DNA from: Cyclobacteriaceae bacterium
Lineage (GTDB): Bacteria; Bacteroidota; Bacteroidia; Cytophagales; Cyclobacteriaceae
Direction of reading: 5' to 3'
Length of the DNA: 41,965 bases
Assembly (NCBI GenBank): GCA_022842845.1
Contig: JALHOT010000023.1
Span: 1 to 41,965, forward strand
The position numbers were made by a program, and so were the translations under genes. Below the pieces are notes generated by a model, which was not told where the DNA came from, ran no database searches, and worked only from the letters and a program-made list of their open reading frames with translations. Of this stretch, positions 15,607 to 25,965 are shown piece by piece (the first letter of the stretch is position 1; each line of letters opens with the position of its first letter).

Positions 15607-18600
15607 TTACCGGGCAGGAGATTCGACTAATGCACTTTCTTCAAAAACCTGCTGTGGTCTTTTGTGGATCATGGCAAGCTTTTCCATTTGCTGCACTTCA
15701 ATCATGTAGACACCAAAATCTTCGGTTACTTTTCCTTTGATCAGGTAAAAGCCCCGGCCCCGTAATGGATAACGTTTGTGTACATCGGGGAAATGCACCG
15801 TGTCAAATACTTCTCCCTTAGCATCGTAAAAGGTGCCAAAGCTCATGGCTTCACCATTCTTGGTTCCTGTCGGTTTTGTGGTAACCACATATCCTATGAT
15901 GCTGATTTGTTTGTTTACCCGCTCCGCTAATTGGCGCGCCAGGGTATTGCCCAATGTTTTGTCAGGAAGTAAATCAAAGGGGTCACGCAGGGGAAATCCG
16001 AGCAACTCAATTTCATCAAAGGCATCTTCTTGCGCTAATCTAGCAAGCGGAGGAAGTAATGGAGATTCGGGCTCTGTACTAAACAAAGCGTTGCTGGTAT
16101 TGCTGCGTGTTTTGGCATGACTCATATACAGCATAGCTTCCCAGAGCAAGTGTTGCTTGCTCTTATTGGTAAACCGAAAGGCTCCAATGCGAATCAGTAT
16201 TCTTACCTGCTCTAAGCCTATGCCTTTAATGCGTTGAAGAAAATTATCCAAACTGCTGTAGTTACCATGCAGGGATCTTTCAAGGGCAATATTCCTGGCA
16301 ATTTTTTGCTCCAGGCTTTTCAGGTGGATAAAGCCTATATAGATTGTAATGCCAATGATGGTGGTGAGGTATTCACTTGTGTTGACACAAGGAGCTTCGA
16401 TGATGGCACCATGCATACGCGCTTCATGAAAGTAAAATTCTGTTTGGTAAAAGCCGCCAAAGTTATTGATGACGCCTACCATAAACTCCAAAGGGTAGTG
16501 GGCCTTGAGAAATAAACTTTGGTAACTTTCTACGGCATAACTGGCTGAATGTCCTTTGGCAAACGAATAACCGGAAAAACTTTCTATCTCAAACCACACC
16601 CGATCAATTACTTTCTGATCGTATCCTCTTTGCTGGCAGCTTTCAAAAAAGCGATCGCGTACCCGTTGAAACTCTTCGCGCGATCTGTACTTACCCGACA
16701 TGCCTCTGCGCAATACATCTGCTTCCGTAAGGGTGAGACCTGCAAAATGATGGGCTACTTTAATCACATCTTCCTGGTAAACCATTACGCCATAGGTTTC
16801 GCGCATGAGCTCATCCATTTTCGGATGGATGGCCTCGTAGTGCCCGCCATTTTTCGTGATGTGATAACGCTTAATGTAGGCAGTCATCATACCCGAACTG
16901 GCCACGCCCGGACGAATAATAGAACTGGCCGCTACCAGCGTGAGGTAATCTGAGCATTGTAATTTACCGAGCAACATACGCATGGCTGGCGATTCTACAT
17001 AAAAGCAACCCATGGCTTTACTATTCTTCAAAAGGTCTTTCACCTTTTCATCAGACTTAAATTTTTTAAAGTCATGGATGTCAACATCAATTCCCCGATT
17101 TCGCTTTACGTGCTTAGCGGTTTCTTTAATGTGTCCCAAACCGCGTTGACTAAGTATATCGAATTTGAAAATTCCGAAATCTTCGGCACTGTGCATTTCG
17201 AAATGCGATACCGGTAAACCTTTGGGAGGGAGATCGGTAGCGGTGTAGGCATGAATGGGTGCTTCTGTAATCAACACACCCCCTGCATGAATAGAAATAT
17301 TGGTGGGCAGATCTTTCATGTATTCCGCATAGCGAAATATGAGATCCCTGATTTGGTCGCGCTTTTTATTCTGTGCCGGAAACTCAACGATGTTGTCGAT
17401 TTCTTCTTTTGGCAAACCAAATACTTTTGCTAATTCCCGTAGTACCGACCGCTTTTGATAGGTAGTGTGTGTTCCTAACAAGCATACATGCTCTTCGCCA
17501 TATTTTTGAAAGAGATAGGCATAGATGGCATCACGGTTGTCCCATGAGAAATCAATATCAAAATCAGGAGGAGAACTTCTTTCTTCATTTAAGAAACGCT
17601 CGAAGTACAGATCAAGCTCGATGGGATCAACATTGGTAATGCCCAGACAATAGGCCACTGTGCTATTGGCCCCGCTACCACGCCCTACAAAGTCGTAGCC
17701 CTGACTTTTAGCAAAGGTGATCAGGTCATAGCTGATCAGATAATAAGCTGTGAAATTTTTTCGATCAATAATACCCAGTTCTTTTTCAATGCGCTCATGC
17801 CAGATCGTATCATTATGGCCGTAGATGCGTGTATACCCTTTGCGGGTTTCTTCCCGGAGATATTGCAAGTCACTGGCCTTATTGCCAGTAATGATTTTTT
17901 TGTTTTTGTCCTCTTTCAGATGGAAGTCAATCGAGCAACTATTGAGCAGGTTTTGGGCATTCTCTATCAGTTCAGGAAATGATGCAAATTGTCGTCTCAG
18001 TTCATCTTCAGGCAACATGTACTCATCTTTGTTCGCTTGTTCATGTTCCATTAGTTTACTAAGCAAAGTATTGTTAGCGATGGCGCGCAGCAGCCTGTGA
18101 ACGTTATAATCTCTGTAGCTTACTTTTTTCTTTTTGCCTTCGTGTGTAACAATCGGTGGCCGAAAGGTCACAGGGTGGTGCAAGATAAATTTGTGTGAAA
18201 ACTCCTTTCGCGATGGGTGCAGGGCATACAAGTTGAGTTGTTGTTTGCGAACCAGTATAAATTCATGAGGGAGGAGTGTTTCTGGTTCGAAATTACCGAA
18301 AGGGTAGAGGATGAAAGTATTATCGAGTATGGGTGCTCTTTTCAATAATTTAATCTCATCGCGATTGTAGCGAGAGAGATGCCGGTTAATATTTTCAAAG
18401 CCTTGATTGTTTTTTGCCAGGGCGATGTAGAGCAATTCATGGTCTTGCCTGAATTCTATGCCAACTCCGATGTTAAGTTCGTGAGCCTCTTGACCAAACT
18501 GATTGAGTCCATTTTGATGATTTTTATTTTTATCACAGCATCGTAACATCTCGATGTAGGACGCTGTATTATTAATCTCTGTTAATAATAGTTTATGTAC

Positions 18601-18687
18601 ACCACACCTCCGGGCTTCATTAAACAGATCGTCTACCTGTAACGTACCGTATTTAAAACTGAGGGCCGTGTGGCAGTTGAGGTACAT
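15607..18687 (-). CDS. dnaE: Short DNA polymerase III alpha subunit (DnaE2-like)
   Basis: 1026 residues, against about 1160 for E. coli DnaE. The N-terminal PHP domain is degenerate: the metal motif HxH reads NCH and the usual TDH reads TEI, so it is probably inactive as a nuclease. The polymerase core is intact: GRGSGANSTVAYCLG (residues 335-349), the catalytic pair D377 and D379 in PPDFDIDF, and the third Asp D510 in FKFDILSQ. A helix-hairpin-helix part (IKGIGLEQVRILIRIGAF) and a terminal OB fold follow. No clear Q-x-x-L-F clamp motif is seen; SNALF lies in the right region. Its place 15 bases after a 2H gene and behind dinB under a LexA-like regulator points to damage-induced, error-prone synthesis instead of chromosome replication. 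Confidence 0.88.
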   Translation of the reverse strand: MYLNCHTALSFKYGTLQVDDLFNEARRCGVHKLLLTEINNTASYIEMLRCCDKNKNHQNGLNQFGQEAHELNIGVGIEFRQDHELLYIALAKNNQGFENINRHLSRYNRDEIKLLKRAPILDNTFILYPFGNFEPETLLPHEFILVRKQQLNLYALHPSRKEFSHKFILHHPVTFRPPIVTHEGKKKKVSYRDYNVHRLLRAIANNTLLSKLMEHEQANKDEYMLPEDELRRQFASFPELIENAQNLLNSCSIDFHLKEDKNKKIITGNKASDLQYLREETRKGYTRIYGHNDTIWHERIEKELGIIDRKNFTAYYLISYDLITFAKSQGYDFVGRGSGANSTVAYCLGITNVDPIELDLYFERFLNEERSSPPDFDIDFSWDNRDAIYAYLFQKYGEEHVCLLGTHTTYQKRSVLRELAKVFGLPKEEIDNIVEFPAQNKKRDQIRDLIFRYAEYMKDLPTNISIHAGGVLITEAPIHAYTATDLPPKGLPVSHFEMHSAEDFGIFKFDILSQRGLGHIKETAKHVKRNRGIDVDIHDFKKFKSDEKVKDLLKNSKAMGCFYVESPAMRMLLGKLQCSDYLTLVAASSIIRPGVASSGMMTAYIKRYHITKNGGHYEAIHPKMDELMRETYGVMVYQEDVIKVAHHFAGLTLTEADVLRRGMSGKYRSREEFQRVRDRFFESCQQRGYDQKVIDRVWFEIESFSGYSFAKGHSASYAVESYQSLFLKAHYPLEFMVGVINNFGGFYQTEFYFHEARMHGAIIEAPCVNTSEYLTTIIGITIYIGFIHLKSLEQKIARNIALERSLHGNYSSLDNFLQRIKGIGLEQVRILIRIGAFRFTNKSKQHLLWEAMLYMSHAKTRSNTSNALFSTEPESPLLPPLARLAQEDAFDEIELLGFPLRDPFDLLPDKTLGNTLARQLAERVNKQISIIGYVVTTKPTGTKNGEAMSFGTFYDAKGEVFDTVHFPDVHKRYPLRGRGFYLIKGKVTEDFGVYMIEVQQMEKLAMIHKRPQQVFEESALVESPAR

Positions 18688-18702
18688 AGGTACAACATTC
18701 TC

Positions 18703-19242
18703 TTAACCGGCCAGGGGTATCTGCTCGTAAGGAATCCAGCGATTGCCCGAACGTTCAAGCACTGTGATGTGGTCGCAAACAAAATTATTGCTGTAGTGCA
18801 CGTTGGCAAAATAAGGCCAGGCCTTGGCAAAATCTTCGTACGGTAGGTTATGTGCAATAGGAAGGTGAGGGGCTTCTACCGCTTCCGTGAGTTCCGATAA
18901 ATTTTCTGTAATATTTAATACAGATGATTTATTGGCAACGTCCAGACAAATGCTTCTGTTCTCGCCATGGTGCAGAGGCCGGCAATCTTTGATGTGCACG
19001 TGAATAGGTGAAACAGACTGCACCTTATCGGCTATAGACCAAATCAGTTTCAGGGGTTGATCGGTGATGCAATAGCCAATGGTAATGTGGGCTTTGGCAT
19101 AGCGACTTTTATAGGGGTAGCCCACCAGACTTTCTGCATCTTTCTTTAAATGACTTACCGTTTCCTGCAGCGGGCTGGGAGGGGTAAGGACAAACAACAG
19201 CTCTTTTGCTTTTTCACTGAAGGTATCTTGATTGATTTTCAT
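18703..19242 (-). CDS. 2H phosphoesterase (2'-5' RNA ligase-like) in mutagenesis operon
   Basis: 179 residues from ATG 19242. Two H-x-T motifs define the 2H phosphoesterase superfamily and are both present: AHITIGY in the first half and CDHITVLER near the end, 106 residues apart. Such enzymes open 2',3'-cyclic phosphates or cut 2'-5' bonds in RNA or nucleotides; here the substrate is unknown. The frame extends to a TTG at 19290, which would add 16 residues, but the ATG gives the usual short N-terminal strand. The gene sits between dinB (71 bases upstream) and dnaE (15 bases downstream), so it is probably made with the two polymerases. A role linked to DNA-damage tolerance is inference from position only. 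Confidence 0.75.
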   Translation of the reverse strand: MKINQDTFSEKAKELLFVLTPPSPLQETVSHLKKDAESLVGYPYKSRYAKAHITIGYCITDQPLKLIWSIADKVQSVSPIHVHIKDCRPLHHGENRSICLDVANKSSVLNITENLSELTEAVEAPHLPIAHNLPYEDFAKAWPYFANVHYSNNFVCDHITVLERSGNRWIPYEQIPLAG

Positions 19243-19284
19243 AGCCTTGTCATTGAATGGTGATACGAAGGTATACTTGTGTTT

Positions 19285-19299
19285 TGACAATTTGTGTCA
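19285..19299. repeat. Inverted repeat TGACA-N5-TGTCA before the 2H gene
   Basis: Perfect 5-base arms around ATTTG, located in the 71-base gap between dinB and the ATG of the 2H gene. It could be an operator for an internal promoter; on the minus strand TACCTTCG, one mismatch from TAnnTTTG, lies at about 19267-19274. Short palindromes arise by chance, so the call is weak. Confidence 0.35.
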
Positions 19300-19313
19300 T
19301 ATCTGATAATTGC

Positions 19314-20522
19314 TTAGCGAACCAGATTCTTGCGAACCTTTCCGTTGAACATGTTCATTTCCATTCTTACCCGCTTACTTACATCGAGGGTGGTCGCTCG
19401 TACGAGTTTTTCTGATCCGTACTTGTGTTTAATGAAATCCATTTCTTCATATAGATTGATGGCTTCTTCCGTATCGTCAAACAAGTTGATCTGATGATTG
19501 CCGTGCACCAAATGACTCAACCTTACGCCCACCAGGCGTATCAACATCCTGCGGTTGTAAAGTTTATCGAAGAGCTCCTGCACCACTTTAAGAATAATGT
19601 GATCGGAAGAAGTATACGGTATATGAATTTGCTTGGTCTCCGTATCAAAATTGGCATAGCGTATTTTTACGGTAATGCAGGAGGTGAGTTTTTTCTGTTC
19701 GCGTAATTGAAAAGCCACCTTTTCGACCATGGCAATCAGGATGGATTTTAATCGCTTTACATCGATCGTATCTTCTTCGAAGGTAGATTCTGTAGAAATG
19801 GATTTCTGTTCGCTGTAAGGCACCACAGGTGTATCGTCTATGCCGTGTGCTTTGTTCCACAGGCTTTGGCCATTCTTACCAAAGGCACTGACTAAAAATC
19901 GCAGGGGCATCTCACGCAGGGTAGCTACCGTGCGTACGCCCATATCATATAAAAAGCTGGCCGTTTGCTTTCCTACCATCGGTAATTTATCGACCGATAA
20001 AGGCCCCAGGAAGAGCTGCTCATCTCCAACAGGAATGTGTGCTTCTGCGTTGGGTTTGAACTCGGCCGTAGCCACTTTCGACACGAGCTTATTAGCCGAC
20101 ATACCGAAAGAAATGGGAAGGCCGCTTTCTTTAATAATCTTTTTTCTCAAAGCCACAGCCCATTTATAAGCGCCAAAAAACTTATCCATGCCGCTGGCAT
20201 CAATGTAAAATTCATCGATAGATGATTTCTCGAAGAGGGGAGATTCTTCGGCAATGATTTCCGTTACTTCATGCGAGAGCTGGCTATACGCTTCCATATC
20301 GCCAGAAATCACAATCGCTTCTGGGCACAGTTGCATGGCCAGGTACATGGGCATGGCAGAGTGCACCCCAAAAGTACGGGCTTCATAACTGCAGGCAGCC
20401 ACAACACCCCTGCGGCTCTTGCCTCCCACAATAAGGGGTTTTCCCTTCAGGCGACTATCCTTTTTGCACTCCACAGCCACGAAAAAGGCATCTAAATCCA
20501 GGTGTATAATGTTTCGATCCAT
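19314..20522 (-). CDS. dinB: Y-family DNA polymerase IV (DinB)
   Basis: 402 residues. The catalytic carboxylates are in place: D9 in HLDLDAFF, and D103-E104 in SSIDEFYID. Palm, fingers and thumb follow the DinB order, with RRGVVAACSYEARTFGVHSAMP as the fingers/nucleotide-binding segment (residues 38-58 region), SFGMSANKLVSKVATAEFKP, and the HhH thumb LPMVGKQTASFLYDMGV. The little finger spans about 240-345. A beta-clamp motif QINLF at residues 344-348 is clear, followed by about 55 further residues. It does translesion synthesis across minor-groove lesions by family knowledge. It is the first gene of the minus-strand cassette and faces the LexA-like gene across 72 bases carrying twin palindromes. 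Confidence 0.96.
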   Translation of the reverse strand: MDRNIIHLDLDAFFVAVECKKDSRLKGKPLIVGGKSRRGVVAACSYEARTFGVHSAMPMYLAMQLCPEAIVISGDMEAYSQLSHEVTEIIAEESPLFEKSSIDEFYIDASGMDKFFGAYKWAVALRKKIIKESGLPISFGMSANKLVSKVATAEFKPNAEAHIPVGDEQLFLGPLSVDKLPMVGKQTASFLYDMGVRTVATLREMPLRFLVSAFGKNGQSLWNKAHGIDDTPVVPYSEQKSISTESTFEEDTIDVKRLKSILIAMVEKVAFQLREQKKLTSCITVKIRYANFDTETKQIHIPYTSSDHIILKVVQELFDKLYNRRMLIRLVGVRLSHLVHGNHQINLFDDTEEAINLYEEMDFIKHKYGSEKLVRATTLDVSKRVRMEMNMFNGKVRKNLVR

Positions 20523-20535
20523 GGCACAAGATTAA

Positions 20536-20553
20536 CTAAAATAAATAGTTTAA
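20536..20553. promoter_or_regulatory. Operator candidate 1 (dinB side)
   Basis: CTAAAATAAATAGTTTAA contains the palindrome AACTA-N7-TAGTT when the two preceding bases are counted. It matches operator candidate 2 at 15 of 18 positions in the same orientation. It fills the spacer of the proposed dinB promoter, where a bound repressor would block transcription. Confidence 0.55.
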
Positions 20554-20567
20554 AACAAATTTGTAAT

Positions 20568-20585
20568 CTAAAAATATTAGTTTAA
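20568..20585. promoter_or_regulatory. Operator candidate 2 (regulator side)
   Basis: CTAAAAATATTAGTTTAA keeps the CTA-N7-TAG palindrome of candidate 1, starting exactly 32 bases later, about three helical turns. It lies in the spacer of the regulator's proposed promoter, so self-repression is likely. The site is unlike the known E. coli or Bacillus LexA boxes. Confidence 0.55.
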
Positions 20586-20594
20586 CCTTTGGGC

Positions 20595-21359
20595 ATGTCA
20601 TTCGTAAACAAGAACCTTCGCCATCTGCGTCTGCAGCAGGGATGGACGCAAAAGGAATTGGCCGATCAATTAGGCGTGAAGCATCCTGTGGTAGGTGCTT
20701 ATGAAGAAGAGCGTGCGATTCCGCCTTTGCACACTTTGCTCAGCATTGCAGAATTGTTTTCGCTGAGTCTTGATGTGTTGGTACAGGAGGATTTAAGTGC
20801 ACCGAATGCCAAAAAGAAGCTGACTCCTAAAAAAGAAGTTTTGGCGATTACCGTTGACAAGCATGATAAAGAAAACATAGAGCTGATTCAGCAGAAGGCA
20901 GCGGCTGGCTATTTATCCGGTTATCAGGATCCTGAGTTTGTGAGCGAGCTACCCAAAATCAGCATGCCGGTATTATCCGGCAATCGTACGCATCGGGCTT
21001 TCGAAATTCAGGGCGACTCAATGTTGCCGATACAGGCAGGTAGCATCGTATTTGGCGAGTATGTAGAATCGCTTGCTGATATTAAAAATGCCAAGCCTTA
21101 TGTTTTAGTAACCAAGAGCGATGGCATAGTTTTTAAAAGGGTCTTTCGCTTTGAGGAGCATAAAGATTCTTTGTTATTGGTTTCTGATAATAAACTCTTT
21201 GACCCCTATACCATCAGGGCAGCTGAGGTAATGGAAATTTGGTTAGTCCATTCTTACTATTCAAAATCGATAACGGCAGTCGATGTCCAACCTATTGCTT
21301 TGGTCAATCAATTAGCAACGCGTCTTTTAGCTTTTGAGAAAAACCTATTAAAGAAATGA
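20595..21359 (+). CDS. LexA/CI-like regulator: XRE helix-turn-helix plus S24 peptidase
   Basis: 254 residues from ATG 20595; a TTG two codons earlier is less likely. Residues 4-62 form an XRE/Cro-type HTH (LRLQQGWTQKELADQLGVKH). The C-terminal half is a LexA/UmuD/CI-type S24 domain: candidate cleavage pair A104-G105 in KAAAGYLSGY, catalytic Ser142 in QGDSMLP, and Lys181 in GIVFKRV. The spacing of these is close to that of LexA (84/85, 119, 156). RecA-stimulated self-cleavage and release of the dinB-2H-dnaE operon is the inferred role. It uses an XRE domain, not the winged helix of classical LexA, so it resembles phage CI repressors in build; no phage genes are nearby. A strong two-way terminator follows. 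Confidence 0.88.
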   Translation: MSFVNKNLRHLRLQQGWTQKELADQLGVKHPVVGAYEEERAIPPLHTLLSIAELFSLSLDVLVQEDLSAPNAKKKLTPKKEVLAITVDKHDKENIELIQQKAAAGYLSGYQDPEFVSELPKISMPVLSGNRTHRAFEIQGDSMLPIQAGSIVFGEYVESLADIKNAKPYVLVTKSDGIVFKRVFRFEEHKDSLLLVSDNKLFDPYTIRAAEVMEIWLVHSYYSKSITAVDVQPIALVNQLATRLLAFEKNLLKK

Positions 21360-21508: not shown

Positions 21509-22972
21509 TTAATAATTGCTTGTTTGCTGCGTGCGGATGTTAGGGTTAGAATTGATCTCTGTGGTAGGGATCGGCCAGTTCCACTCTCTTGCACTTGCTC
21601 CTAATGTAAGCGGAGTGCTGGCAAGTTGAGCATCGCCTACAGGTCTTGAAATGGTCTTGGTTGTTCTCTTTAAATCAAACCAACGGTGCCCCTCTGCTAC
21701 CAATTCTTTTCTGCGCTCGAGGGCAATAGCATCAAGCAAAGCCTGGCCTGTTAAAACTTCAGGCGTGTAAGCTGTAATACGAGCTGCTCTCAAAGCATTC
21801 AAATCATCCATGCCTAGAGACTCTTTACCCGCTTGTAAAGCACGCGCTTCAGCACGGATCAAGAACATCTCACCACTTCTGATAGCCTTCCAGTTCACCA
21901 GGTTATCACCGGCAGTAGGAGGGGCAGCATTTCTTGCATAAAACTTAGAAACGATTCTGCGTGGCGTACCGCTTAGAGAACGGGTGGCAAAATACGATGA
22001 GAAACGGATGTCGTTTGTCTGATCGTAAGTTGCTTCCAGCGCAGCAGAAGGCTTAAAGCGGTTTCTGTTGTTACCGGCAATGTGTACACCGGCTGAAGGA
22101 ACGCCTTCGCCTAAGTTAAAGGCTACTGACCAGATTACTTCGCCCATGGCTGCATCTCTCCAAATGTTAGGGAATACAGTTCTGTCTGACAAACCAATAG
22201 CATTGATTACCAAAGTTGCATAGTTTTCTGCCTGTACATAATCTTTAGCATAGAGGTTAACCCTGGCCAAGATGGCACGAACAGCAGTGCGGTCAAGGTA
22301 GTATCTTGCACTGGCAGTATTGATAGTTCTATCTACATCACCCAACAATGTTTCTGCAGTCGTTAAGTCTGCAAAGATCTTGTCGTACGATAACTGTACA
22401 GTTAATCTTGAAGGCTTGGCTTCAGGATTAACAACTTCAATGTAGGGAATACCAAGCGCTGAAGATGTTCTATCGTAGCTCTCTGCCCAGTATCTGAAAA
22501 GATCGAAGTGAGCCATTCCACGGATAGCAAGGGCCTGACCTTTAATTCTGTTAACCGCCTGTGGGTTAGTAGCACTGAACTGATCAAGGTTTCTCAACAC
22601 CAGGTTAGCCTGTGAGATAACACCATAAGCAGCCAACCAGGCCACTTCCAGGTCATTCTCATCAGCAGTGTATGTCCAGTTGCATTGCGTTTGCCAGTTA
22701 GCCAGGTCTTCGTTGGTACGCACCAGGTTATCGCCCATCATATCAGGCAGGTTACCCCAAGTGCTGGTGGTTTGACCACCGCTACCAAAGTATCCAGTTT
22801 GGCGGAACAGGGCATAAGCGCCTGTTAAAGCAAAGTCATACTCTTCAAGGGTTTTGAAGATCTGGCTGCCTTCCTTTACAAACTCGGGCTCTACATCGAG
22901 TACACTATCGCACCCGCCAGCTGTCAGCAAGGCACCAATAGTAAGAGCTATATATAATTTTTTAAACTTCAT
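21509..22972 (-). CDS. SusD/RagB family outer-membrane lipoprotein
   Basis: 487 residues from ATG 22972; a GTG two codons upstream is less likely. The signal MKFKKLYIALTIGALLTAGG ends at Cys21, a lipoprotein site, and continues SVLDVEPEF, as in many SusD-like proteins. Typical SusD segments follow: an N-terminal helical part with TGAYALFRQTGYFG, IKGQALAIRGMAHFDLFRYWAE in the TPR-like region, EMFLIRAEARALQ, and a C-terminal LERRKELVAEGHRWFDLKR. The protein would be the substrate-capturing lid over the SusC channel. It follows susC by 14 bases. No glycoside hydrolase, sensor or anti-sigma gene is near, so the substrate cannot be guessed. Confidence 0.95.
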   Translation of the reverse strand: MKFKKLYIALTIGALLTAGGCDSVLDVEPEFVKEGSQIFKTLEEYDFALTGAYALFRQTGYFGSGGQTTSTWGNLPDMMGDNLVRTNEDLANWQTQCNWTYTADENDLEVAWLAAYGVISQANLVLRNLDQFSATNPQAVNRIKGQALAIRGMAHFDLFRYWAESYDRTSSALGIPYIEVVNPEAKPSRLTVQLSYDKIFADLTTAETLLGDVDRTINTASARYYLDRTAVRAILARVNLYAKDYVQAENYATLVINAIGLSDRTVFPNIWRDAAMGEVIWSVAFNLGEGVPSAGVHIAGNNRNRFKPSAALEATYDQTNDIRFSSYFATRSLSGTPRRIVSKFYARNAAPPTAGDNLVNWKAIRSGEMFLIRAEARALQAGKESLGMDDLNALRAARITAYTPEVLTGQALLDAIALERRKELVAEGHRWFDLKRTTKTISRPVGDAQLASTPLTLGASAREWNWPIPTTEINSNPNIRTQQTSNY

Positions 22973-22986
22973 GATCACCTATTGTT

Positions 22987-25965
22987 TTATAGACCAACAT
23001 TAATACCAAAGGTTACTGTTCTCAAGGCAGGATATTGAGCTCCTGAAAGATTACCTGTTGATATTTCAGGATCGAATCCTAAGAATTTCGTAAAGGTTAA
23101 CAAGTTTTGTCCTTGTGCATAGATTTTTACGCTGCTCAACTTCGCCTTGCTGATAATGCTCGTTGGCAAAGAGTAAGACAAAATAACGTTTCTTAAGCGC
23201 AAGAAATCACCATCTTCCACAAAACGGGTAGTACCTGCTCTGAATTGGTTATCGGGACGGGGGATTCTGGTGATGTCACCTGCCTGTCTCCATTCGGTTA
23301 ACAATTCTCTGCTCAAGTTATCGAATAGGTAGTCAGGGTTCTCCACGTTATTGCGGTCGTTGTTAAAAATTTTGTTGCCCATTACAAAGCTGAAAAGCGT
23401 GCTGAACTCAAGACCTTTATAGCTTAGTGAGGTGCCAAATCCACCGAAATAAGGAGTTTCATAACTACCTACAATAACACGGTCAGCAGGGTTGTACACT
23501 TCTGTGATGCTGCCATCAAGCTTGCGGTATAAAGCATTTCCATTATCAGGATTAACACCTTCGTAAGGAACTACGAAAATAGAGTTGATGCTTTCGCCTG
23601 GCTTTAGGATAGTTAAACCACTGATGATTTCAGTCTGACCTTCCAACAATTGGTTAACCTGATTTTTGTTGTAGGTTAAGTTACCAGAGATATTCCAACG
23701 GAAATCAGCAGTCTTGATAATGTTGGCATCAAGAGAAACTTCCACACCACTGTTTTGTAACTCACCAACGTTAGAGGTTAGGGTAGAGAAACCCGAAGTT
23801 AAAGAAAGCGGTTTTCCTAAGAACAGGTCACTGGTTACAGAATTGTAATATTCAATAGTACCGTTCAGTCTTCCGTTCAATGTGGCAAACTCAATACCTG
23901 TGTTGAATGTTATTTTCTTTTCCCAGCGTAAATCAGGGTTGGGCAATTGGTTTTGGATCAAACCACTCACACCATTGTAAACTCCACGGCCGTAGAGTTC
24001 TCTTGCCTGGAAGGTTCCAATACCTGCCTGGTTACCCGATGAACCATAGCTCGCTTTAAATTTCAATTCATTGAAAATTCTGTCCTTCAAAGATGCCATA
24101 AATGCTTCATCAGATACAATCCAGCTCGCACCGATTGAACCAAAGTTTGCATAACGATTATTGGCACCAAAGCGAGAGGAACCGTCACGTCTTGCACCTA
24201 CCGTAATGAAATACTTCTCTTTGAAACCGTAGTTAATAGAAGTAAAGTAAGACAACAAAGCGCTTGGGCCACCTCTAAAGTCAACACTTTCACCGTTAAA
24301 TCCATCGGAAGCATTTCCACCTACGGCAGGAATGAAACCATTGGTGTTGTTACCCGGTGTAATACCCGCTTCGTTTTCGAAAGGACCACCTAGACCATAA
24401 CCTGTAAAAAAGAAGCTGTTTGAATTGCTCTTCACCACTTCGTTAAACAAATTTACAGTCAGGTTGTGATCTTCTGCAATTTGCTTGGTATAGGTGATAG
24501 AGGTTGTACCAGTGTATCTGAAACGCTTACCATATTGACGCACCAATTGACCTTTTTGGCTTGGTGTTCCAGAACCAGTAGCAGTTGTACCATCGGTGTA
24601 GGCAGTACGCTCGTTAGAAGTGAAATCACCACCCCAGTTTGTTTTGATAGAAAGACCTTTTACAAAAGGTACGCTGTAATTCACATACACATTACCAATG
24701 GCCTTTATCTGACCTCTTAAGTTGGTGTTCTCTAACAACTCTTGCAAAGCGTTAGGCTGACCAGAGATCATTTGAGTATAAGAGCCATCATCCTGGTAAG
24801 GTGTTTCGTATGGGTTAGTCCAGCGAATAGCGTTAAGCGGTGTAGCAATACCTGTGTTGTTTTCACTGGTGTTGGTGAAATCTGAATAACCGAAAGTAGA
24901 GTTAACACCAAAAGTGAAATTCTCAAGACCGGTTTCAACGTTAATACGACCAGTGTATCTTTTCAAGCCTGTGTTAACAACTGTACCAGACTGATCGAAG
25001 ACTGAACCAGAAATGAAGTAGTTCGTTTTATCAGCGGCACCAGAGGCGCTTAGTGTGTGGCTTTGCGTCTTGCCAGTTTGGAAAAATACATCGGCCCAAT
25101 CTGTATTAATAGCCGAAAGAGCAGTTACATCGTCATCTGTCCAACCATAAGGGTTACCATTGGCTAACTCATACTCCAGCTTTTCAGCAGAATTCATTAA
25201 CGCGAGTTTATTTTCAGGTGCTTGTGAAAAACCATATTGCGCGTCATAAATAATTCTGGTCTTTCCTTTCTTACCTTTTTTACTGGTAATAACCACTACA
25301 CCGTTTGCACCGCGTGATCCGTAGATAGAAGTTGCGGAAGCGTCCTTCAATACGCTGATGTTTTCAAAGTCTGCCTGGTTAAGGGTAGAGAAGTCACCCG
25401 CGGTGATTTCAATACCATCCAAAATGAAAAGAGGAGAGTTTGAACCAAATAATGAACCCTTACCACGGATAAGCACCGATGCAGGAGCACCCGGCTGACC
25501 TGATTGTGACTGAATAAGTACACCCGCCACCTGGCCTTGCAGGGCCTGATCAAAAGAGGCCAAAGGAACTCTTCCGATGTTTTCACCTTTCACCGCGGCA
25601 ATAGAACCTGAAATTTCACGAAGGTTCTGTGTCGCGTAACCGGTTACCACTACTTCTGAAAGTTGTTGAACATCCATGGCCATGGATACATCGACTGTTG
25701 TGCGATCACCAATGGCAACTTCCATTGTCTGAAGACCAATAAATGAAAATACAAGGGTATTCGCCTGAGCTGGAACACTCAGTTTGTAGTTACCATCCGC
25801 ATCGGTTACTGTACCGTTAGAAGTACCTTTCACGATCACGTTCACCCCTGGCAAAGATGTATCATCTTCTGCCGATTTCACCTTTCCAGAGATGGTTCTC
25901 TCTTGTGCATGTCCTGCCAGAAAACCAAACAGGAACAGCCCCATTAATAGTAGATTTCTCCTCAT
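22987..25965 (-). CDS. SusC/RagA TonB-linked outer-membrane transporter
   Basis: 992 residues. A signal peptide (MRRNLLLMGLFLFGFLAGHA) is followed by a carboxypeptidase-regulatory-like beta-sandwich at about 22-105 (ISGKVKSAEDDTSLPGVNV, with TDADGNYKL), the TonB-box-like stretch SEVVVTGYATQ, and the plug domain to about 235 (VLIRGKGS, PLFILDGIEI, DFENISVLKDASATSIYGSRGANG). The rest is the 22-strand barrel, ending in aromatic-rich strands. There is no N-terminal secretin/STN domain, so it is not expected to drive an anti-sigma cascade. It imports an unknown ligand together with SusD. A 9-base inverted repeat lies ten bases before the ATG. Confidence 0.97.
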   Translation of the reverse strand: MRRNLLLMGLFLFGFLAGHAQERTISGKVKSAEDDTSLPGVNVIVKGTSNGTVTDADGNYKLSVPAQANTLVFSFIGLQTMEVAIGDRTTVDVSMAMDVQQLSEVVVTGYATQNLREISGSIAAVKGENIGRVPLASFDQALQGQVAGVLIQSQSGQPGAPASVLIRGKGSLFGSNSPLFILDGIEITAGDFSTLNQADFENISVLKDASATSIYGSRGANGVVVITSKKGKKGKTRIIYDAQYGFSQAPENKLALMNSAEKLEYELANGNPYGWTDDDVTALSAINTDWADVFFQTGKTQSHTLSASGAADKTNYFISGSVFDQSGTVVNTGLKRYTGRINVETGLENFTFGVNSTFGYSDFTNTSENNTGIATPLNAIRWTNPYETPYQDDGSYTQMISGQPNALQELLENTNLRGQIKAIGNVYVNYSVPFVKGLSIKTNWGGDFTSNERTAYTDGTTATGSGTPSQKGQLVRQYGKRFRYTGTTSITYTKQIAEDHNLTVNLFNEVVKSNSNSFFFTGYGLGGPFENEAGITPGNNTNGFIPAVGGNASDGFNGESVDFRGGPSALLSYFTSINYGFKEKYFITVGARRDGSSRFGANNRYANFGSIGASWIVSDEAFMASLKDRIFNELKFKASYGSSGNQAGIGTFQARELYGRGVYNGVSGLIQNQLPNPDLRWEKKITFNTGIEFATLNGRLNGTIEYYNSVTSDLFLGKPLSLTSGFSTLTSNVGELQNSGVEVSLDANIIKTADFRWNISGNLTYNKNQVNQLLEGQTEIISGLTILKPGESINSIFVVPYEGVNPDNGNALYRKLDGSITEVYNPADRVIVGSYETPYFGGFGTSLSYKGLEFSTLFSFVMGNKIFNNDRNNVENPDYLFDNLSRELLTEWRQAGDITRIPRPDNQFRAGTTRFVEDGDFLRLRNVILSYSLPTSIISKAKLSSVKIYAQGQNLLTFTKFLGFDPEISTGNLSGAQYPALRTVTFGINVGL

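Follow-up and report, generated by a model that had tools for sequence, protein, structure and literature searches.

What is a protein of the 2H phosphoesterase fold doing inside a mutagenesis operon? The question is raised by a 41,965-nt contig of a Cyclobacteriaceae bacterium (Bacteroidota; GenBank assembly GCA_022842845.1, contig JALHOT010000023.1), the whole of which is called the window here. In it, the gene for a regulator of the self-cleaving type is transcribed away from an operon of dinB, a 2H gene and a short dnaE2 (plus versus minus strand). The original prediction had described this cassette, and gene order, strands, coordinates and Pfam domains all agree with it. Within the group, the regulator, dinB and dnaE2 are unremarkable, each being of a kind already described. 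The new part of the cassette is the 2H gene, and no report linking a 2H protein to DinB or to the SOS response appeared among the matches listed in the open-access literature. From sequence comparisons across the class, we conclude that Y-family polymerases repeatedly have a 2H protein as a partner, mostly under SOS control, and that this protein has probably been overlooked as a component of the mutation machinery.

Genomes were drawn as samples from a collection whose family and genus codes (f60, g186 and the like) serve here as labels. Gene calls were based on open reading frames (ORFs), and neighbours outside the queried families mostly remained unassigned. When 390 genomes of the window's own family were searched for 2H at an E-value of 1e-10, 124 had a match, with a bimodal distribution of scores: 48 genomes exceeded 100 bits and the rest lay at or below 84 bits. 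DnaE2 was found at E 1e-240 in 309 of the 390. All 48 loci of the high-scoring group, referred to as the close family, were read; 43 of them have the 2H gene in the company of dinB, dnaE2 or both on one strand, a cassette position seen in eight genus codes. Sought across genomes, as the original prediction had proposed, the company of 2H with dinB and/or dnaE2 is thus not confined to this strain, and the idea of a single-strain oddity was rejected. Several members of genus g86 show a 4-base overlap between the end of dinB and the beginning of 2H. A FastTree phylogeny was built from 79 DnaE2 sequences, from loci picked partly for having 2H and with some later loci left out. Every one of the 33 rows that have 2H beside dnaE2 belongs to a single clade of 55 rows (SH-like support 98). 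Presence of 2H beside dnaE2 changes state at least 5 times on this tree, most simply through a single gain followed by several losses. A RecQ gene with RQC and HRDC domains (e.g., L047:5569-7704) separates 2H from dnaE2 in 15 of these 33 rows; recQ also precedes 2H in L103 and L225 and adjoins dnaE2 at three loci without 2H (L118, L131 and L220).

The 2H protein can be as little as 34% identical where DnaE2 keeps 69% (G028). Nei-Gojobori ratios of nonsynonymous to synonymous substitution rates (dN/dS) for 2H were 0.00-0.12 in the cassette pairs that gave a value (21 chosen pairs; two 2H pairs yielded none), and 0.10, 0.12 and 0.18 in three pairs of relocated genes, which lie outside the cassette. 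Values for the partners were 0.00-0.06 (DinB), 0.03-0.05 (DnaE) and 0.03-0.18 (RecQ), and those of diverged pairs, including the window pairs, are rough because dS is saturated. By these estimates, the 2H gene of the window's family is under strong purifying selection.

The association reappears beyond this family, in other arrangements. A class-wide search with the cassette 2H profile (E 1e-20) matched 5 of 395 genomes, and one with a profile of the 2H proteins of family f60 (E 1e-14) matched 23 of 395. In two f60 genomes matched by the cassette profile, 2H lay back to back with dinB. Within f60 itself, 2H of this type occurred in 22 of 151 genomes from two genera (g186 and g296), and in 18 of the 19 g186 genomes with a match it was divergent from dinB, sometimes as a tandem 2H pair; no dinB was present within the flanks read in the nineteenth g186 genome or in the three from g296. 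The exact sequence CTAA-N5-TTAG, an SOS operator discussed below, occurs in 18/18 of these dinB-2H spacers. Moreover, 12 of 30 distinct f60 2H ORFs, from 10 of the 22 genomes, carry Q-x-x-L-F, the form of the sliding-clamp motif of the cassette DinB, within their last ten residues (as QFSLF, QISLF, QVNLF, QINLF, QIGLF, QVSLF or QTSLF). The background at the same loci was 3 of 1131 other ORFs of at least 150 aa, chance ORFs and repeats included.

A covalent link also occurs, and the f60 profile was needed to find it. In two f80 genomes a single ORF encodes a whole DinB (IMS, IMS_C and clamp motif) followed by a 2H domain scoring 79-81 bits, and a third such fusion (IMS, IMS_C, PF13563 at 83 bits) was found in another genus, making 3 of 11 f80 genomes in three genera. 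One fusion (G738) overlaps at its end with a dnaE2 gene (1044 aa; 1009 bits against the window DnaE2), and another dnaE2 starts at most 30 bp after the second (G934; 385 bits over the 489 aa available); the gene after the third (G718) is not dnaE2. In a fourth family, f55 (G634), a 2H gene whose product ends in QGDLFGT, a tail that departs from the strict clamp motif at position 2, and a UmuC-type gene with DUF4113 are transcribed away from each other, and the spacer between them contains the operator as CTAATTTATTTAG; an ORF resembling UmuD by eye precedes this umuC. An f73 2H protein (G600) ends in QLVLF and has no adjoining polymerase. The other 10 of 14 further class genomes had no polymerase match within ~1.5 kb and no such tail in the output shown. 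At the level of sequence, then, 2H and Y-family polymerases appear to be joined in at least four ways: by operon, by divergent SOS promoter, by clamp-type tail and by covalent fusion. With several different links, one of them covalent, a chance association is very unlikely. The tie to translesion synthesis that had been predicted from the operon is strengthened by the divergent pairs, tails and fusions; the intact second catalytic motif ascribed to the 2H protein did not hold, as described below.

Control of the cassette by the SOS response, as predicted, is supported by an exact operator and by the regulator, which supplies the single PF00717 (S24) match in the whole genome. The residues expected of a self-cleaving regulator, Ala104-Gly105, Ser142 and Lys181, are present when counted from ATG 20595, likely the true start, although the ORF opens at TTG 20589. 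Non-canonical LexA of Bacteroidetes has the same HTH_3 and S24 domains, Ala-Gly bond, Ser-Lys dyad and dinB target, its published operator, located at its own and SOS promoters, is CTAA-N5-TTAG or GGA-N5-TCC, and the window regulator shows no difference from it in the portion of that report available (PMC8565304); the term 'RNA ligase' occurs 0 times in the text. In the window genome the operator was found at the shared regulator/dinB promoter, the only promoter examined there. The genome holds 43 such sites in 3.76 Mb, so that a chance site within a given 66-bp spacer is expected about 1 time in 1300. Among cassettes with 2H, at least one exact operator is present in 36/36 readable dinB promoters, and 27 of the 36 have two, mostly 32-33 bp apart. 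At loci without 2H, an exact operator accompanies dinB in 16 of 25 listed, contig ends having cut some of these promoters.

The polymerases of the cassette are of described kinds. The window DinB has the predicted intact catalytic site and clamp motif, in the form of DLD and SIDE (read by eye) and QINLFDD; across cassettes this clamp motif is Q-x-x-L-F with varied middle letters. DnaE2 of the window has no Q..[LM]F motif after residue 850 and is 29% identical to the one other DnaE of the genome, in which Y-family (IMS) proteins number two in total. The DinB tail, DFIKHKYGSEKLVRA, resembles the N-terminus of RecA by eye and is only a candidate for the RecA-NT-like motif expected of the Y polymerase in a DnaE2B-PolY-RecA mutasome. 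Operons of dinB and dnaE2 in Bacteroidetes have been published as the DnaE2B-PolY-RecA type (PMC12926913), with an earlier description from Cellulophaga algicola (PMC6511836), and SOS operators have been reported to control dinB together with a gene for DNA polymerase III alpha (PMC8565304); Bacteroidetes DnaE2 is likewise known to have a short PHP and a short thumb (PMC3919608). Like the DnaE2B-PolY-RecA mutasome, as presented in the available parts of these reports, the window cassette sets an apparently active Y-family polymerase with a clamp motif beside a short DnaE2 in one operon, and its DnaE2 was assigned to the DnaE2B kind by operon type and phylum only. It differs in having a 2H protein, since none is named in the available text of either report: 'ligase' occurs 0 times in the main texts of PMC12926913 and PMC6511836, and 'phosphoesterase' once in PMC12926913, inside a reference title only. 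With the ImuA-ImuB-DnaE2 cassette it shares an SOS operator, DnaE2 and a Y-family member with a clamp motif, whereas ImuA and a dead ImuB are missing: its ORFs encode DnaE, 2H, an IMS protein with DLD and SIDE that looks active, and the regulator. The original prediction had DinB and 2H taking the places of ImuA and ImuB; the dinB-dnaE2 part of that proposal is not new, such operons being published, and the 2H gene is what it adds. At two loci a polymerase gene is split over two ORFs (DnaE2 of G394, L219; DinB of G636, L235), possibly as pseudogenes or through sequencing errors.

What kind of protein is the 2H partner? PF13563 matched 24 of 25 members of its alignment, and an AlphaFold2 model built from these 25 sequences (pLDDT 89.1, pTM 0.82) has the bilobal fold of the 2H superfamily. 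The best Foldseek match was Bacillus subtilis YjcG (2d4g; E 5.1e-8, TM 0.78/0.83), followed by CPDase, LigT, Usb1, AKAP18, ASCC1 and a trypanosome mitoribosome subunit; thus LigT and CPDase, the comparison originally suggested, are both listed, behind YjcG. A PDB search with the single protein gave no match and one with the 2H profile found YjcG at E 0.0016; PHROGs and NCBIfam hold no family for it. The fold is that of YjcG, LigT, CPDase and Usb1, and the YjcG alignment gives motif 1 and the place of motif 2. The window protein differs from YjcG in sequence (17% identity in the structural alignment), in its second motif, HLP, and in its location in an SOS cassette. The 2H domain of human ASCC1 (8tly) also has this fold (Foldseek E 6.7e-4), with other partners; ASCC1 is a member of a complex linked with a helicase and with the repair of alkylation damage, and in the cassettes recQ is often beside 2H.

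Two H-x-T motifs had been predicted for the window 2H protein. The first, H52-I-T54, is right. The second, H158-I-T160, was rejected because the position is not conserved in the close family: 43 copies have Arg (28), His (5, including the window), Ser (4), Cys (2) or, once each, Asn, Glu, Asp and Thr. Alignment to YjcG and to 20 free-standing 2H proteins places the true second motif, P-H-x-T, at P125-H126-L127-P128, in which the His is retained and Thr is replaced by Pro. The window protein therefore has HIT and HLP rather than two H-x-[TS] motifs, and the cassette protein is a 2H-fold homologue and only a putative enzyme. Both H-x-[TS] motifs are complete in 26 of the 43 copies, and both His are present in 30. 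In a set of 47, comprising these 43, L210 and L211 (both His) and L224 and L225 (lost), with fragment L223 left out and the five relocated copies included, both catalytic His are kept in 32 and one or both are lost in 15. In one unusual copy (G002, L046:8071-8562) the first predicted strand is missing and the second His is Asn.

These losses bring forward the best of the alternative readings, namely that the cassette 2H protein is a non-catalytic structural or end-binding subunit, much as ImuB is a dead polymerase and ImuA a dead RecA homologue. The rate of loss (15/47) contrasts with that among free-standing 2H proteins, taken from 76 genomes with only weaker 2H matches, where both His are kept in 22 of 24 (18/20 and 4/4) and lost in 2. 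The losses look repeated because the replacements differ (C, Y, N, G, S, V, L), and dN/dS is low (0.06) in a pair, L090/L102, that shares Ser for the second His. Repeated loss argues, from sequence, that catalysis is not always needed and that a binding or assembly role can suffice. Nonetheless, both His persist in 32 of the 47 copies, the window's among them, in the three DinB fusions (one with H-I-M as motif 1) and, by motif listing, in most f60 proteins, and two of the 15 losses belong to relocated copies (L097 and L099). As a general account of the cassette protein, we regard a purely non-catalytic subunit as rather unlikely, though deserving of attention.

We would instead place the 2H protein at the primer terminus. 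DNA damage would produce RecA filaments and thereby self-cleavage of the S24 repressor, as its conserved residues suggest, and release of CTAA-N5-TTAG would then induce the regulator itself, dinB, 2H and dnaE2. DinB would supply the clamp contact, DnaE2 showing no Q..[LM]F motif, and 2H would work at the same primer terminus, in the cassette form presumably by binding DinB or DnaE2. For some members of the second family (f60), the tie to the clamp would be their own C-terminal Q-x-x-L-F, and in the fusions of the third (f80) 2H is covalently part of DinB. The fold of LigT, CPDase and Usb1 acts on RNA-type ends. Given this role of the fold elsewhere, and because DinB and the clamp would bring 2H to the primer terminus, the ancestral work was most likely on RNA-type or blocked 3' ends; as a phosphoesterase, the protein may have acted on a 2',3'-cyclic phosphate or a terminal ribonucleotide encountered or produced in translesion synthesis. 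Several cassette lineages have lost the catalytic His, and there the protein would persist as an end-binding or assembly subunit. That the cassette represents a DnaE2B-PolY-RecA mutasome locus under SOS control, with an added accessory 2H subunit at the primer terminus, we judge about as likely as not. More tentatively, with the balance slightly on the side of doubt, the 2H protein may be an undescribed Bacteroidota mutasome subunit that is linked to its polymerases in all four ways and acts on or holds the primer 3' end, having become in many lineages a pseudoenzyme adaptor comparable to ImuA and ImuB.

Several observations count against a 2H subunit at the primer terminus. No cassette 2H protein has a clamp-type tail (0/48), nor do 18 of the 30 f60 ORFs, and the published definition, Q-aliphatic-x-[L/M]-[F/L] (PMC11139829), fits 8 of the 12 tails found, four with Phe or Thr at position 2 falling outside. 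CTAA-N5-TTAG was absent from the stretches examined upstream of the fusions, and a polymerase lay within ~1.5 kb of 2H in only 3 of the 14 further class genomes. In the window's family, 2H is dispensable: it is missing beside dnaE2 in 22 of the 55 clade rows, some of which are contig ends or relocations; one genome (G004) has a cassette with 2H (L045) and another without it (L049); and in 5 of the 48 close-family genomes 2H lies elsewhere, beside an Fe-S assembly-type gene (Pfam run for L095 only). The window 2H gene may have its own promoter, given the 71-bp gap after dinB. Each of the four families may have recruited its 2H protein independently, and loss of the catalytic His speaks against one conserved chemistry. 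The relocated loci are L093, L095, L097, L099 and L133, with both catalytic His gone in L097 and L099.

A role in signalling or defence was also weighed, in which 2H degrades a cyclic or 2'-5' nucleotide signal and so protects a cell in the SOS state from an alarm of its own or one set off by phage. The Foldseek matches do include viral phosphodiesterases for 2'-5' oligoadenylate and cGAMP, at weaker E-values. Against this, the DinB fusions and clamp-type tails point to the replication fork, and a PADLOC scan of the window proteins left 2H, DinB, DnaE and four flanking proteins unmatched, the regulator being hit only via its HTH; we consider such a role improbable. That 2H is a passenger, placed in the operon by chance and busy with an unrelated RNA house-keeping job, would suit the many g18 loci whose cassette lacks it and its relocation in five genomes, and is hard to credit given that 2H is linked to Y-family polymerases in four different ways in as many families, fusions and a common operator among them, and that its cassette position recurs across eight genus codes.

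For induced mutation, cells rely on small accessory subunits (UmuD', ImuA and ImuB), which help to set when error-prone polymerases gain access to DNA. If a 2H subunit does serve the mutasome, an RNA-end enzyme fold joins this list, and translesion synthesis in the phylum becomes connected with the handling of ribonucleotides or blocked 3' ends. Because DinB-2H fusions and clamp-tailed forms exist in nature, a single purified protein would suffice for a direct test of the idea. The SOS response of the phylum was described only in 2021 (PMC8565304).

Features of the window cassette are collected in Table 1.

Table 1. Coordinates of the cassette features in the window
Feature	Position	Strand	Support
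S24-family SOS regulator	20595..21359	+	HTH_3 47.8 bits, Peptidase_S24 29.7 bits
SOS operator CTAAAAATATTAG (CTAA-N5-TTAG)	20568..20580		Exact copy in the shared divergent regulator/dinB promoter
Second operator-like site CTAAAATAAATAG	20536..20548		One mismatch; 32 bp from CTAAAAATATTAG
dinB, Y-family polymerase	19314..20522	-	IMS 158 bits, IMS_C 97 bits, clamp motif QINLFDD
Perfect palindrome TGACACAAATTGTCA	19285..19299		Just upstream of 2H
2H-fold gene, 179 aa	18703..19242	-	PF13563 (2_5_RNA_ligase2) 38.1 bits
dnaE2, short DnaE (PHP, polymerase, HhH)	15607..18687	-	Pfam DnaE alpha match

For the 2H gene, ATG 19242 is more likely the start than TTG 19290, at which the ORF opens; the gap of 71 bp after dinB is counted to this ATG, and 15 bp separate 2H from dnaE. 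The palindrome TGACACAAATTGTCA recurs exactly in L045 and partially in L046, and it is perhaps an element of a separate 2H-dnaE2 promoter; a genome scan gave no sign of a TGACACAAATTGTCA regulon (5 sites versus 3 for the control). Downstream of the regulator, at 21509-25965 of the window, lie SusD-like and SusC-like (TonB-dependent) genes unrelated to the cassette. Spacer ORFs between dinB and dnaE in L117, L120, L125 and L123 were considered as diverged 2H genes and rejected, as they match a Y1/RAYT-like transposase of L045 (4704-5267). Such transposase genes occur in cassette spacers at 10 of the 63 loci holding both dinB and dnaE2 (L045, L085, L102, L103, L117, L120, L123, L125, L221 and L224), and these spacers could either be an insertion hot spot or have a meaning within an SOS mutagenesis operon.

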